32,186 bases of DNA from Chloroflexota bacterium (GTDB taxonomy: Bacteria > Chloroflexota > Dehalococcoidia > Lucifugimonadales > JACQOS01). A model generated the notes under the pieces. That model was given only the letters and a program-made list of their open reading frames with translations. It was not told the origin of the DNA and searched no databases. Positions 11,725 to 32,186 of this stretch are shown here, one piece after another; the first letter of the stretch is position 1, and the number at the start of each line of letters is the position of its first letter. Made by a program: the position numbers and the translations under genes. The stretch is from the NCBI GenBank assembly GCA_016202425.1, contig JACQOS010000213.1:1-32186 (forward strand), written 5' to 3'.

Positions 11725-12077
11725 GGGGACGCGTGGCTTCGACAGGGGAAGGCTTGGCGGAATTGCAGGCCGAGGTGCCGTCACACCTCGTAAAACAGGC
11801 GGCAAAAGAGTAACTGGCGAGCCTCAACTCGCACTGGCTGCCTAAAGCGCGGCCACGTCCGCTCCTCCGTCCCCCGAACGGAGGAACCGGGCGCCATTAA
11901 GTCGGGGTGCGGCTGCCCTGGCGCCGAGAGGGGCCGCTTAAGAGCATCGGCTGGCTGGGCTTCTTCGCCGCCGGCGGAGGGGGAGCCTGGCGAGAACTCA
12001 AGCACCGGCTAAGCCTGTAGCATATTCCAGCGAGGCCTCTTCTGGACGGGGGGTTCGACTCCCCCCCGTCTCCACCA
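11725..12077 (+). ncRNA. ssrA: Transfer-messenger RNA (tmRNA)
   Basis: GGGGACGCGTGGCTTCGACAGG 5' end and GGTTCGACTCCCCCCCGTCTCCACCA 3' end. Acceptor GGGGACG/CGTCTCC has the G3-U70 alanine identity pair. Tag ORF ends ...GEPQLALAA-stop. Confidence 0.95.
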
Positions 12078-12739: not shown

Positions 12740-13775
12740 CGGGGTGTCTGGTTGGCGGGGCGGTCGGGGATGCGCTCGGCCTGCCGCTGGAGGGCATACC
12801 GCCGCAGCGTGCTCGCAAGTTCCGGCGATCGCCGCTGCGGCATGCGCTGGTCGGCCGCTGGGGCATGGTGTCCGACGATACCGAGCATGCGGCCATGACC
12901 GCCGCCGCGCTGGCGGTCACAGCCGGGGAGCCTTTTCTTTTCACCCGCAGACTGGCGCGATCGCTGCGCGGGTGGCTGGCCAGCCTGCCGGCGGGCTGTG
13001 GTCTGGCCACCGGGCGCGCCATCCTAAAGCTGTGGCTGGGTTTTCCGCCGCAGAGGAGCGGCGTCTGGTCGGCTGGCAATGGGCCGGCGATGCGGGCCGC
13101 GGTGATCGGGGTTGCGTGGGGCGACCAGCCGCAGCAGACGTTGGACTTGGTCCGCGCCAGTAGTGTGCTGACTCATCGCGACCCGAAGGCGACCGTAGGT
13201 GCCCATGCGGTGGCGCTGGCCGCATGGCAGGCCGCGCAAGGGGTGTGCGACCCGGTGGCCCTGGGTGAGACTTTGCGTGCCGACCACGGCGGCGTGGCAG
13301 AGCCGCTGCTGGAGTTGATCGAACGGGCGGTCGCGTCGGCAGACGCGCGGCAGTCGACGCCTGAGTTCTGTCACGCGCTTTGCGGCAAGGGTGGGGTCAC
13401 CGGCTTCATCGATCACACGGTCGCGGTCGCGATGCATGCCTGGCGCGCCTTTCCCGAAGACTACCGGCAGGCAGTCGAAGGCGCCGTGGCGTGCGGTGGC
13501 GACACCGATACGCTCGCCGCGGTGGTGGGAGGCATCGTTGGCGCAAGAGTCGGGGTGGCAGGCATCCCGATGGGCTGGTGCCAGGGCGTCAGGGACTGGC
13601 CGCGCTCCCTCGGCTATCTGACGCGACTGGCTGCGGTGCTGGCCAGCAGCCGGTCGCTGGGGCAGCCGGTGGTCCCACCACGCGCCGTCTGGCTGTTCTG
13701 CTTCGTGCGCAACCTGGTCTTTCTGGCGATTGTGCTCGTCCACGGCTTCCGGCGCTTGTTGCCGCCTTACTGAGC

Positions 13776-13886
13776 CAACCTTCGACCCCCGTCCCCCTTC
13801 CCTTCACCAGGTTCAGGGCAGGTTCCAGAACCCCGCCAGAGGGGGCTCGGCCCCCTCTGGACTCCCCTTTTTTCCGCAGCCTGCTA
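13776..13886 (-). repeat. MITE-like repeat copy 2 (distal end truncated)
   Basis: Reverse complement TAGCAGGCTGCGGAAAAAAGGGGAGTCCAGAGGGGGCCGAGCCCCCTCTGGCGGGGTTCTGG...AAGGGGGACGGGGGTCGAAGGTT. Homology stops about 3 bp after the ADP-ribosylglycohydrolase stop codon. Confidence 0.75.
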
Positions 13887-21796: not shown

Positions 21797-22567
21797 GTGA
21801 GGCTGCGGGACCGGGTGAGCATCGTCACCGGGGCGGGCAGCGGCATAGGGAGGGCAGTAGCCCTGGGCCTGGCTGGAGAGGGGTCGCGGGTAGTGCTGGT
21901 GGGCAGGACCCCTGGGCCGTTGGAAGAGACGAAGCGGCAGGTCGAGGTCTCTGGGGGAGCGGCGCTCGTCTGCCCAGGCGACGTGGGTGACCCTCGGGCG
22001 GTCCGAGCCACCGTCGAGGCGACGCTTCAGGCCTACGGGCGTGTGGACGTGCTGGTGAACAACGCCGGCTACAACATCCCCCAACGGGGCATCCTGGAGA
22101 TGGCTCCTGAGCAGATCGAAGGGGTCGTGCGGGGCAACCTGACGGGGAGCCTGCTGTTCATCCAGGCGGTGCTGCCCGCAATGCTCAAGGCCAGGGCGGG
22201 GACCGTCGTGAACGTCTCCTCCATAGCGGCGAAGCGCCCTGCCCTGGTCTCGGGCGCGGCCTACAGCGCGGCCAAGGCGGGGCTCATCACCATGACGCGA
22301 GTGCTGAACCTGGAGCTGCACAACACGGGGGTGCGGGTGTGCGTGGTGATTCCTGGGGCGACGGACACCCCGTTGATGGACAAGCGCGTGGCGCCTCCCT
22401 CCAAGGAGGCGAGGGCGGCGATGCTGACCCCTGACGATGTGGCCGAGGCGATCTTGCTGGCGGTGCTGATGCCGGGGCGCGCTCTTGTGGAGGAGGTCGT
22501 CATCCGGCCCACGGTGCAGGTGGAGTTCCGCCGCCAGGTGCCGCCCCCGGCGGCCAGCGGGGCATAG
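21797..22567 (+). CDS. SDR family oxidoreductase (FabG-like)
   Basis: SIVTGAGSGIGRAVALGLA, DVLVNNAGYN, NVSSIAAKRP, AAYSAAKAGLITMTR. Confidence 0.92.
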   Translation: MRLRDRVSIVTGAGSGIGRAVALGLAGEGSRVVLVGRTPGPLEETKRQVEVSGGAALVCPGDVGDPRAVRATVEATLQAYGRVDVLVNNAGYNIPQRGILEMAPEQIEGVVRGNLTGSLLFIQAVLPAMLKARAGTVVNVSSIAAKRPALVSGAAYSAAKAGLITMTRVLNLELHNTGVRVCVVIPGATDTPLMDKRVAPPSKEARAAMLTPDDVAEAILLAVLMPGRALVEEVVIRPTVQVEFRRQVPPPAASGA

Positions 22568-22713
22568 CAGGTTGGTGAAAAAGGAGGAGTCCAGAGGGGC
22601 GCAGCCCCTTTGGCGGGGGTCTGGGGGTGTCCCCCAGATATAATTCCTACCCCCTTCCTGGCCAGGAAGGGGGACAGGGGGATGGTCGAAAGGTTTTTTC
22701 AACACCCTGATAG
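22565..22713 (+). repeat. MITE-like repeat copy 3 (complete)
   Basis: Core 22568-22709 begins CAGGTTGGTGAAAAAGG and ends TTTTTTCAACACCCTG (imperfect inverted ends), flanked by ATAG at 22564-22567 and 22710-22713. Internal hairpins AGGGGC-GCA-GCCCCT, TCTGGGGG-TGT-CCCCCAGA and palindrome CCCCCTTCCTGGCCAGGAAGGGGG. Confidence 0.85.
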
Positions 22714-29194: not shown

Positions 29195-32095
29195 GTGACG
29201 GAGCCCATCGCCATCACCATTGACGGGCGGGCGGTCCAGGCCCGCCCTGGCTCCATGGTGCTGGAGGCGGCCATGGAGGCAGGGGTCTACATCCCCTATC
29301 TGTGCTATCACCCGGGCATGAAGCCCTTCGCCGCCTGTCGGTTGTGCGTGGTCCAGGAGGAGGTGGAGGCAGAGGTGGAGAGGGACGGCCAGAAGGTGAA
29401 GGAGAGGCAACTACGGCCCCCCTCGGCCTCCTGCACGCTTCCGGTGCGTCCCGGCATGGCCGTGCGTACCGTCACCGAGACGGTCCGGCAACTGCAACGG
29501 GGGGTGATGGAGATGCTCATCTCCGAGCACCCCCACGGCTGCCTCACCTGCCACAGGATCGAGCTGTGTGGCCCCGAGGATATCTGCCTGCGGCACGTGT
29601 CGGTGAACGACCGATGTGTCATCTGCCCCAAGAACGAGCGGTGTGAGCTGAAGGACACGGTCCGGTACCTGGGGATGGAACTGACCTCTTCCTTGTCGTA
29701 CCAGACGCGGGGTCTGCCCATCGAGGCGGCTGACCCGTTCTACGACCGGGACTACAACCTGTGCATCGTGTGCGGTCGTTGCGTGCGGGTGTGCGAGGAG
29801 GTGCGCGGGGACAACGCCATCACGTTCACCGAGCGGGCAGGGCAGGCGCTGGTGGGGACGTCCCGGGGGACGTCGCTCTTGGAATCCGGATGCGAGTTCT
29901 GCGGGGCCTGTCTCGATGTCTGCCCCGTGGGGGCGCTGGTGGAGAGGGAGCACAAGTGGGACAAGGCAGTGCGGGTCGTGCGGACGGTCTGCCCCCACTG
30001 CCCGGTGGGGTGCCAGTTGAACCTGGAGATCAACAAGAGGGAGAAGGTGGTCCGGGCCATTCCTGAGATCAAGGCTCCGGCCAACCGCGGCCAGGCGTGT
30101 TTCAGGGGAAAGTTTGGCCTGGAGTACGTGAACCACAAGGACCGGCTGAGGAGGCCGCTGGTCCGCAAGGACGGGCAGCTCCAGGAGGCCACGTGGGAGG
30201 AGGCGATGGCGCTCGTGGCGGAGCGGCTTGCCCGCTACCGCGGGAGCCAGTTCGCAGCCGTGGCGTCAGCGCGGGGAACGAACGAGACGGCGTACCTGCT
30301 CCAGAAGTTCGCGCGCGTGGCCATGGGGAGCAACAACGTCTGCGTGGACTCCGACACCCGGCCGGCCCTGGCCAGGACGCTGGCGGACTCCCTGGGCTAC
30401 GCTGCCGCCACCAACACCATCTGGGAGCTGGAGAGGGCAGGCTGCATCCTCGCGGTCAATAGCAATACCACGGAGGAGCACAACGTGGTGGCGGTGCCCG
30501 TGAAGCGGGCTGTCAAGGGTGGCGCCAGGCTCATCGTGGTGGACCCTCGGGAGGTGGAGCTTACCCGCTATGCCCATCTCTGGCTGCGGCCCAGGCCCGG
30601 GACGACGCTGGCCCTGCTCGCGGGAATGTTGCGCGTCGTTCTCGACGCGGGGCTGGCCGACAAAGCGTTCCTCCAGGAGCGGTGCGATGGTCTGGAAGCG
30701 TTGCGGGCGTCCGTGGGGCCCTACGACCTTGAGGCCGTGGCCAGCGCTACGGGCGTGCCAGGGGAGGCGATCGGGGAAGCGGCGCGCCTCTACGCCAAGG
30801 GGGGGCCGTCGGCCATCCTCTACGCCCTGGACAACGTGCCGCCCGAGGATCAGGAGGCCGAGGTCGTGGCCCTGGCGGACCTGGCGCTGGCGACGTGGAA
30901 CCTGGGGAAGCCCTCCAGCGGGCTGTATCCCCTGCGTCACGGCACCAATGAGCAGGGCGCTTTGGACGTGGGATGCGCCCCGGACCTGCTGCCAGGCTAC
31001 GCTCATCTGGACGACGGGCACGCGCGGCGGCGGCTGGAGGAGTCCTGGAGAGCTGCCGTGCCGGAGACACCGGGCCTGGGCCTTGGTGCGGCCCTCCTGG
31101 CGGCGCGGGAGGGCAGGCTGAAGGCGATGGTGCTGATGGGAGATAGCGCCAGCTACTCCAGCGGAGAGGTGGGGGACGGCTACGAAGCCCTGGACCGTCT
31201 CGAGTTCCTGGTGGTGCACGATGCGTTTCTGGGCGAGGCGGCCCAGCGGGCCCACGTCGTGCTCCCCGCCACCACGTTTGCGGAGGACGAGGGCACGTAC
31301 ACCAACCTGGAGCGGCGCGTCCAGCTCCTGGTCAAGGCGCTCACGCCGAGGAACAGCGAGGCAAGGCCCGCCTCTTGGATGGTGTGCGACCTCGCCCGGC
31401 GCATGGGGGCGAAAGGGTTCGACTTCCTGGGCCCCGCCGAGGTGTTCGATGAGATCGCGGCCGTTGCCCCTAGCTATCGGGGCATCTCCCACGAGCGGCT
31501 GCGGCGAGAGGCCGTGCTCACCCTCCGCCCGGACCCGCTGGACCCCCTCCCTACCCAGTACCTCTACTCGGACCGGGTGTCCCAGGGGCTCCTGTGGCCA
31601 TGCCCGGAGCCTGAAGGCCCGGGGACGCCGGTCCTCTATGCCACTGGGTTTCCCCACGGGCGGGCGCGGCTCAGGCCGCTGCCGCCCCCTCGGCCCCGGG
31701 AGGCGGAGCCGTTGCTGCTGGTCCCGGGCCGGGTGCTGGCCCAGGAGGACCGGGAGATGGAGGTGGCGCAGGCCGACGGTGTGAACCAGGTCCGGCGGGA
31801 CGAGTGGGTGGAGCTCCATCCTGAGGATGCCGCGGCCCGGGGCATCAGCCCGGGCGACCTGGTGGAGGTTCTGTCGGGGAGGCAGCGCCTTCGGGGAATC
31901 GCCGTGCTCCGGGAGGGGGCGCACCGAGGGGTGGTGTCCGTCACCACCCTCTTCGGAGAGTTGGCCACCAGGCTCCAGGCCAGCGAGGCCCCGGACCCCA
32001 TGGCCAGCGTCCCCGGGCTGGTCATTGCGCCGGCACGGATGGAGAAGCTCGGCGCGGGCCCCCGCCTCCGGGCGGCGGGCGGGCCATCCCCATAG
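29195..32095 (+). CDS. NuoG / formate dehydrogenase alpha-like Fe-S molybdopterin subunit
   Basis: N-terminal 2Fe-2S (YLCYHPGMKPFAACRLCVV), two ferredoxin clusters (CIVCGRCVRVC, CEFCGACLDVC), CPHCPVGCQL, and a molybdopterin-binding body with a dinucleotide-binding C-terminus. Confidence 0.9.
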   Translation: MTEPIAITIDGRAVQARPGSMVLEAAMEAGVYIPYLCYHPGMKPFAACRLCVVQEEVEAEVERDGQKVKERQLRPPSASCTLPVRPGMAVRTVTETVRQLQRGVMEMLISEHPHGCLTCHRIELCGPEDICLRHVSVNDRCVICPKNERCELKDTVRYLGMELTSSLSYQTRGLPIEAADPFYDRDYNLCIVCGRCVRVCEEVRGDNAITFTERAGQALVGTSRGTSLLESGCEFCGACLDVCPVGALVEREHKWDKAVRVVRTVCPHCPVGCQLNLEINKREKVVRAIPEIKAPANRGQACFRGKFGLEYVNHKDRLRRPLVRKDGQLQEATWEEAMALVAERLARYRGSQFAAVASARGTNETAYLLQKFARVAMGSNNVCVDSDTRPALARTLADSLGYAAATNTIWELERAGCILAVNSNTTEEHNVVAVPVKRAVKGGARLIVVDPREVELTRYAHLWLRPRPGTTLALLAGMLRVVLDAGLADKAFLQERCDGLEALRASVGPYDLEAVASATGVPGEAIGEAARLYAKGGPSAILYALDNVPPEDQEAEVVALADLALATWNLGKPSSGLYPLRHGTNEQGALDVGCAPDLLPGYAHLDDGHARRRLEESWRAAVPETPGLGLGAALLAAREGRLKAMVLMGDSASYSSGEVGDGYEALDRLEFLVVHDAFLGEAAQRAHVVLPATTFAEDEGTYTNLERRVQLLVKALTPRNSEARPASWMVCDLARRMGAKGFDFLGPAEVFDEIAAVAPSYRGISHERLRREAVLTLRPDPLDPLPTQYLYSDRVSQGLLWPCPEPEGPGTPVLYATGFPHGRARLRPLPPPRPREAEPLLLVPGRVLAQEDREMEVAQADGVNQVRRDEWVELHPEDAAARGISPGDLVEVLSGRQRLRGIAVLREGAHRGVVSVTTLFGELATRLQASEAPDPMASVPGLVIAPARMEKLGAGPRLRAAGGPSP

Positions 32096-32186
32096 CAGGT
32101 TGGTGAAAAAGGAGGAGTCCAGTCCCGACTCGTCGGGATTGGCGGGGGTCTGGGGGTGTCCCCCAGATATAATTCTTACCCCCTTC
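32093..32186 (+). repeat. MITE-like repeat copy 4 (partial, cut by window end)
   Basis: TAGCAGGTTGGTGAAAAAGGAGGAGTCCAG + TCCCGACTCGTCGGGA + TTGGCGGGGGTCTGGGGGTGTCCCCCAGATATAATTCTTACCCCCTTC. Identical to copy 3 outside the hairpin except one base. Confidence 0.85.

Follow-up and report, generated by a model that had tools for sequence, protein, structure and literature searches.

In a draft genome of 1.96 Mb and 213 contigs, from an uncultured member of the Chloroflexota and probably of the Dehalococcoidia, near-identical copies of a dispersed repeat carry unrelated, still base-paired stems at one and the same hairpin; an earlier note had described this for single copies, and the pattern holds throughout the genome when all copies are tabulated by the stem between their conserved flanks. 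This repeat, about 150 bp long, is a non-autonomous, MITE-like DNA transposon; its ends are IS1182-like, and it duplicates a 4-bp NTAN target, mostly CTAG. Taken jointly, the sequence comparisons point to an IS1182-ended, MITE-like element whose interior hairpins would be cassettes, inserted or exchanged at hairpin tips, a reading to which we assign a probability of roughly 0.7. They also suggest block-wise copying of hairpins from repeat to repeat rather than evolution base by base.

The window, which is the whole stretch of DNA analysed (32,186 nt), is one entire contig (C174) of this genome, and its first and last copies of the repeat are incomplete for that reason (copy 1, minus strand, 1-50, truncated at the contig start; copy 4, plus strand, 32093-32186, truncated at the contig end). 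Copy 2, on the minus strand (13773-13886, the low-coordinate boundary being approximate), is diverged; copy 3, on the plus strand (22565-22712), is a complete element of 148 bp with the 4-bp target duplication ATAG at 22564-22567 and 22710-22713. The parts are ordered as left end, the motif AGTCCA, hairpin 1, a core with hairpin 2, hairpin 3, a 3′ slot, and right end. In copy 3, all on the plus strand, these comprise a left terminal inverted repeat of type A, TAGCAGGTTGGTGAAAAA (22565-22582), the hairpin-1 slot with the replaced stem, GAGGGGC-GCA-GCCCCTT between CCA and TGG (22591-22613), the invariant core GGGGGTCTGGGGGTGTCCCCCAG (22615-22637), which holds hairpin 2 (CTGGGGG-TGT-CCCCCAG, 22621-22637), hairpin 3 (CCCCCTTCCTGGCCAGGAAGGGGG, 22650-22673), at whose tip other copies have insertions, the 3′ slot GTCG^AAAGGTTTTTT (22684-22699), and the right terminal inverted repeat TTTTTCAACACCCTGATA (22695-22712).

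Copies 3 and 4 share an exact left flank of 32 nt (22563-22594 and 32091-32122), slightly longer than the 30 nt first reported, and a right flank of 48 nt with one mismatch (22610-22657 and 32139-32186); no such matches of these flank motifs occurred in 100 shuffles. Between them lie AGGGGC-GCA-GCCCCT in copy 3 (22595-22609) and TCCCGAC-TC-GTCGGGA in copy 4 (32123-32138), the latter in a slot that reads CCA, then GTCCCGAC-TC-GTCGGGAT, then TGG (32119-32142). These stems, like those of copies 1 (AGGGGC-GAA-GCCCCT) and 2 (AGGGGGC-CGA-GCCCCCT), are as the earlier note gave them, and the flank matches that it listed are real, but the flanks run far past the listed range, full copy 3 being 148 bp. 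In copy 2, hairpin 2 is gone as well, its place being taken by a CCCTGAAC..GAAGGG palindrome (CCCTGAACCTGGTGAAGGG), a relative of the CCTGAGC..GAAGG palindrome described below.

Throughout the genome, the core GGGGTCTGGGGGTGTCCCCCA occurs in 183 copies at no more than three mismatches (reversed control, 0). The element is short and geneless; most full copies measure 141-176 bp, and those with extra modules reach 269 bp. One interior is combined with five sets of terminal inverted repeats: A, TAGCAGG(T/C)TG(G/C)TGAAAAA; B, TAGAAGTGGTTCGGAAA; C, TAGAACCTGTCTCAAAAC; D, TGAAGTCATTTCAAAA; and E, ATCCCAAAAT. Left and right ends are matched within all five types (among copies with both flanks complete, A-A 19, B-B 17, C-C 4, D-D 1, and E-E 1), with about eight mixed copies, some of which may be assembly artefacts. 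Identical 4-mers border 27 of 48 type-A copies against 12.9 expected, a number that none of 5000 permutations equalled, and the duplicated targets are most commonly CTAG, with TTAG, CTAA, ATAG, and TTAT also seen. In these respects the repeat resembles known bacterial MITEs, which are short, geneless, high-copy elements with terminal inverted repeats and target duplications (PMC10969869), and insertion sequences with similar ends are found in the class. It differs from them in that several unrelated end sets sit on one conserved hairpin core and in that the interior hairpins are swapped as blocks; the words mosaic, modular, and hairpin were not found in that review. Directly after the core, many copies (five loci were recorded) carry an extra module of 60-90 nt (CTGGGCACTGCCCAGACCCACGACTCGCTACCGTCGCCTGTCGCAGG..) with hairpins of its own. 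The core itself, read as GGGGG-TCT-GGGGG-TGT-CCCCC (22615-22637 in the window, and in all cores), would fit the class I purine motif of intrastrand triplexes as defined elsewhere (PMC4666352). Its 5′ G tract is conserved though unpaired in the hairpin model, and in the core variant GGGGTTCTAGGGGTGTCCCCTA all three tracts are altered together; the variants of one relative, G033 (GAGGG/CCCTC), do not match the motif.

Within the class, a likely type of source for the ends can be named. The relative G058 has an intact insertion sequence (L263) with DDE_Tnp_1, DDE_Tnp_1_6, and DUF772 domains and perfect 16-bp ends, GAGGCTGTCCGAAAAC, which are alike at 14 of 18 positions with the type-B right ends of the element. 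When its transposase was searched in 198 genomes of the class, more IS1182-type elements were found, with ends CTAG-GAGCCTGTC.. and similar, and seven loci end in CTAG-(G/C)AG(C/T)(C/T)TG..; the repeat shares with them both IS1182-like ends and a CTAG-type target. We take these insertion sequences to be members of IS1182, given their Pfam architecture and the general features of that family. Their ends in relatives of the class are similar to those of the element, not identical. The window's own genome contains only a broken IS1182-like gene among the regions read, and the 887 kb read yielded no intact autonomous element that has type-A ends. The resemblance of ends and targets argues that the repeats are probably IS1182-derived MITEs. 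The broken gene (L124, contig C48, about 29.4-32 kb) adjoins an IS630-like transposase that has a single in-frame stop. An IS630/Tc1 origin, suggested by the TA-like ends, was rejected, as the duplication is 4 bp and this sole IS630-like element has other ends (TAGTACCTACTT..) than the repeat.

Hairpin 1, between CCA and TGG, is filled by at least six unrelated palindromes. The commonest stem is TCCCGAC (46 copies), followed by AGGGGC (23), GAGGGGGGC (6), GAGGGGGC (5), and AGGGCCG (5); in a further 28 copies AGGGGC or GTCCCGA is followed by an added CTGAGC..GAAGG hairpin. The same palindromes are found in other places. TCCCGA..TCGGGA occupies the 3′ slot in 11 of 29 scored copies (as TCCCGACCAGTCGGGA instead of the sequence of copy 3), the rest having AAAGGGTTT and variants, and three dispersed, unrelated repeats have it at their tips. 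In repeat X, TTGCGAGGAG^CGACGAAGCAATC, it is the tip in 9 of 11 copies; in repeat Y, CATTCTGAG^CGAAGAATCT, four copies have it and two have an unfilled short form, CGAAG; and in repeat Z, CACCCTGAG^CGAAGGGT, it was found once. The palindrome CCTGAGC..GAAGG lies behind hairpin 1, at the tip of hairpin 2 (one case), at the tip of hairpin 3 (three), and in repeat Y (two). Among the explanations offered by the earlier note, the recurrence of these palindromes in other slots and in unrelated repeats favours a hairpin-cassette process, and the note's proposal that a still-paired stem is replaced as a block gains support from the near-identical flanks around different stems.

Three further hairpins look like intermediates, judged by their composition. 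In one assembly of a relative (JACPCL), GAGGGGCG|TCCGCCTCAGGCGGA|TGG keeps one arm of the old stem, as does GGGGCG|TCCCGACTTGTCGGGA|TGCCA beside GGGGCGGAGCCCCTGCCA in G020; in G024, from the window's order, the new hairpin is nested inside the old one (GAGGGGAGGGC|TCCCAGCGAAGCTGGGA|ATCCCTTT). We propose a scheme, still conditional, in which the interior of the element is a chain of hairpins acting as cassettes. An entire palindrome would be inserted at the tip of an existing hairpin or swapped for it, and the leftover arms of the old hairpin would then be trimmed or lost. One or two such steps would exchange the whole stem, with the flanks still identical and the new stem still paired. The exchange could proceed by extrusion and breakage of a hairpin followed by short-homology repair from another copy (ectopic exchange), or a small mobile palindrome could insert itself; the carriers would presumably be moved by an IS1182-type transposase. 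Among relatives of the same order or class, no pair with one orthologous site empty in one genome and filled in another was found. A bolder form of the proposal, which we consider possible and hold only tentatively, would make the small palindromes themselves (TCCCGA..TCGGGA, CCTGAGC..GAAGG, and others) mobile in these bacteria, with hairpin tips in DNA as their target. In MITEs and unrelated palindromic repeats alike, hairpins would then be continually overwritten through a dedicated or repair-driven tip-exchange pathway, as a bacterial counterpart of the nested palindromes of organelles. The cassette palindromes might instead share an attraction to GAG/C contexts without moving between slots.

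A single local event could also yield a new perfect stem if the replicating polymerase switched template inside the hairpin. Such switching is a known one-step maker and restorer of perfect stems in RNA genes (PMC8794818), where an entire stem is likewise altered at once and stays paired, and GC DNA rich in hairpins is probably prone to it. However, one arm is there copied from nearby sequence, whereas the sequence flanking hairpin 1 lacks the TCCCGA, AGGGCCG, and CCTGAGC arms, which recur as identical foreign palindromes at many distant loci in unrelated contexts. We therefore regard template switching as an unlikely source of the swaps, although it could tidy new stems after an exchange.

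Still less probable is that the stems mark two ancient lineages whose flanks are merely alike, as would be expected if only two stem types existed, in two old subfamilies with matching flank divergence. At a coarse level there is some such structure, in that end type B is found mostly with TCCCGAC-GG stems and the left subtypes preferred by loop GCA differ from those preferred by loop GAA. Yet at least six stem types exist, and within type A stem and flank are not associated: flanks differ on average at 24.6 of 68 positions between copies with the same stem and at 25.7 of 68 between copies with different stems (permutation p = 0.19). Eighteen pairs with different stems have no more than 3 differences in 68, and copy 3 shows none over 68 aligned flank positions against a full-length copy with the stem of copy 4 (L108). 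The AGGGCCG stem with its loop CTTA is found with end types A, C, and D, and AGGGCCGACTTATCGGCCCT is found with A and C and, with one stem change, with D. Left subtype, stem class, and right subtype together violate the four-gamete test, many of their combinations being impossible on an exchange-free tree.

Selection on structure alone, under which stems would evolve in situ by compensatory changes, base pair by base pair, appears slightly less probable again. Some constraint to stay paired is visible. Native stems fold below -10 kcal/mol in 27 of 29 cases against 236 of 678 half-and-half hybrids between classes, and in the native-versus-hybrid pairing test across genomes the values are 94% and 54%; single compensated stem changes occur, and the basal pair is found in two forms, GTCCA..TGGC and GTGCA..TGCC. 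Point mutation under such selection need not be invoked for the stems, however: stems unlike one another at almost every position lie between flanks with 0-1 differences, the stems fall into discrete classes, the same stem recurs across end types and in unrelated repeats (AGGGCCG with the same loop), and no stepwise intermediates from AGGGGC to TCCCGAC were seen among the copies examined.

The least credible account is chimeric assembly of a high-copy repeat. The draft is of the short-read type (about half of it was read), many of its contigs stop within the repeat, and contig C141 contains a perfect inverted duplication that includes flank. Yet left flank, stem, and right flank (about 80 nt) recur together at several loci with different neighbours, and a local chimera at 32123-32138, the possibility raised by the earlier note for copy 4, fails because the 94 nt of this copy recur in other contigs with different genomic neighbours at 100% (C146:5125-5218) and 99% (C110:2413-2506) identity, while the same kind of swap is present in a separate assembly (G179) and hairpin-1 variety extends to a 6.1-Mb contig (G710). 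The duplication in C141 (L142, 12830-12921) joins one element and its genomic flank in perfect inverted copies and is probably an assembly artefact.

The swap in G179, which belongs to another order of the class, is independent of the window's genome: near-identical copies have AGGATACTTCCT or CCCGATATAATCGGGG between GAGGTGC and GCCGGGG, on contigs that are mostly 60-172 kb long (one of 18.5 kb and one of 24.5 kb). On the G710 contig, a two-hairpin unit has the stems AGGAGGGC, AGGGGGAC, AGGGTCC, and AGGAGGGCC. At no more than one mismatch, the core was found in 61 of 393 genomes of the class and in 10 of 399 genomes of a phylum-wide draw that included class members, and in a scan of GTDB species genomes for the flank-and-core pattern all 64 matching stretches belonged to Chloroflexi/Dehalococcoidia MAGs. 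The core is absent from most closed relatives (one or two contigs). In G033 and G007 there is a related two-hairpin unit without MITE ends, which in the single-contig relative G033 forms an 88-bp tandem array of about 11 copies (L153, C1:1054557-1055463), also free of MITE ends; an 84-bp tandem array was seen in G710, and G545 has two copies 75 bp apart.

Palindromes nested in palindromes have been described before. In the organelle DNA of Volvox carteri, short palindromes lie inside others and form composite repeats in noncoding DNA, as here; the Volvox repeats differ in being organellar, and neither transposon ends nor stem replacement between conserved flanks appears to have been described for them (PMC2670323). 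Sponge mitochondria likewise have dispersed GC-rich hairpin elements of several types, some in tandem, but their stems are conserved and their loops variable (PMC2800124), whereas here stems vary in a fixed frame. REP elements are high-copy bacterial palindromes with GTAG/CGTC tags and variable paired stems, with subfamilies that have alternative complementary residues (PMC3733652). The present repeat resembles them in copy number, conserved short boundaries, and variable paired stems. It was nevertheless rejected as a REP element: there is no GTAG/CGTC tag at hairpin 1, which is bounded by GTCCA/TGGC or GTGCA/TGCC, the host is a 150-bp element with terminal inverted repeats, and no RAYT gene is flanked, the genome's one Y1 gene having neither core nor cassette in the 3.1 kb read. 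This sole Y1 (HUH) transposase gene (L383, C93:1267-1587, about 341 aa) is not flanked by these repeats. Nested mobile palindromes are thus known from algal organelles, and in the open-access literature we found no earlier description of hairpin exchange in bacterial MITEs or in Chloroflexi.

The functions first suggested for the hairpin (terminator, hairpin of single-stranded DNA transposition, structured RNA) are not supported. No Rfam family matched at its gathering score, the best weak matches being unrelated (E = 0.05-0.2), and the ends are of the kind that suits DDE transposons and not HUH/IS200 elements. Covariation in a stem is usually taken to prove selection on RNA structure. If hairpins swap as units, perfect two-sided stem changes would arise without selection on each pair, which would call for caution when covariation is used for discovery in genomes rich in repeats. 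The element, present in hundreds of copies per genome and alongside several unrelated host repeats, would also offer a natural system for the study of palindrome spread in bacteria.

Two open reading frames of the window end in the repeat: the stop codon of the frame at 21797-22567 is the TAG of the left end of copy 3 (22565-22567), and that of the frame at 29195-32095 is the TAG of the left end of copy 4 (32093-32095). Genome-wide, the stop-codon frames give only a weak signal for such a gene-end position, as an open frame of 150 codons or more terminates at the left-end stop in 13 of 47 cases (4 and 9 for the two remaining frames) and at the right-end stop in 15 of 57 (9 and 13). The window also contains a tmRNA gene (11725-12077) and one tRNA gene (1166-1240).
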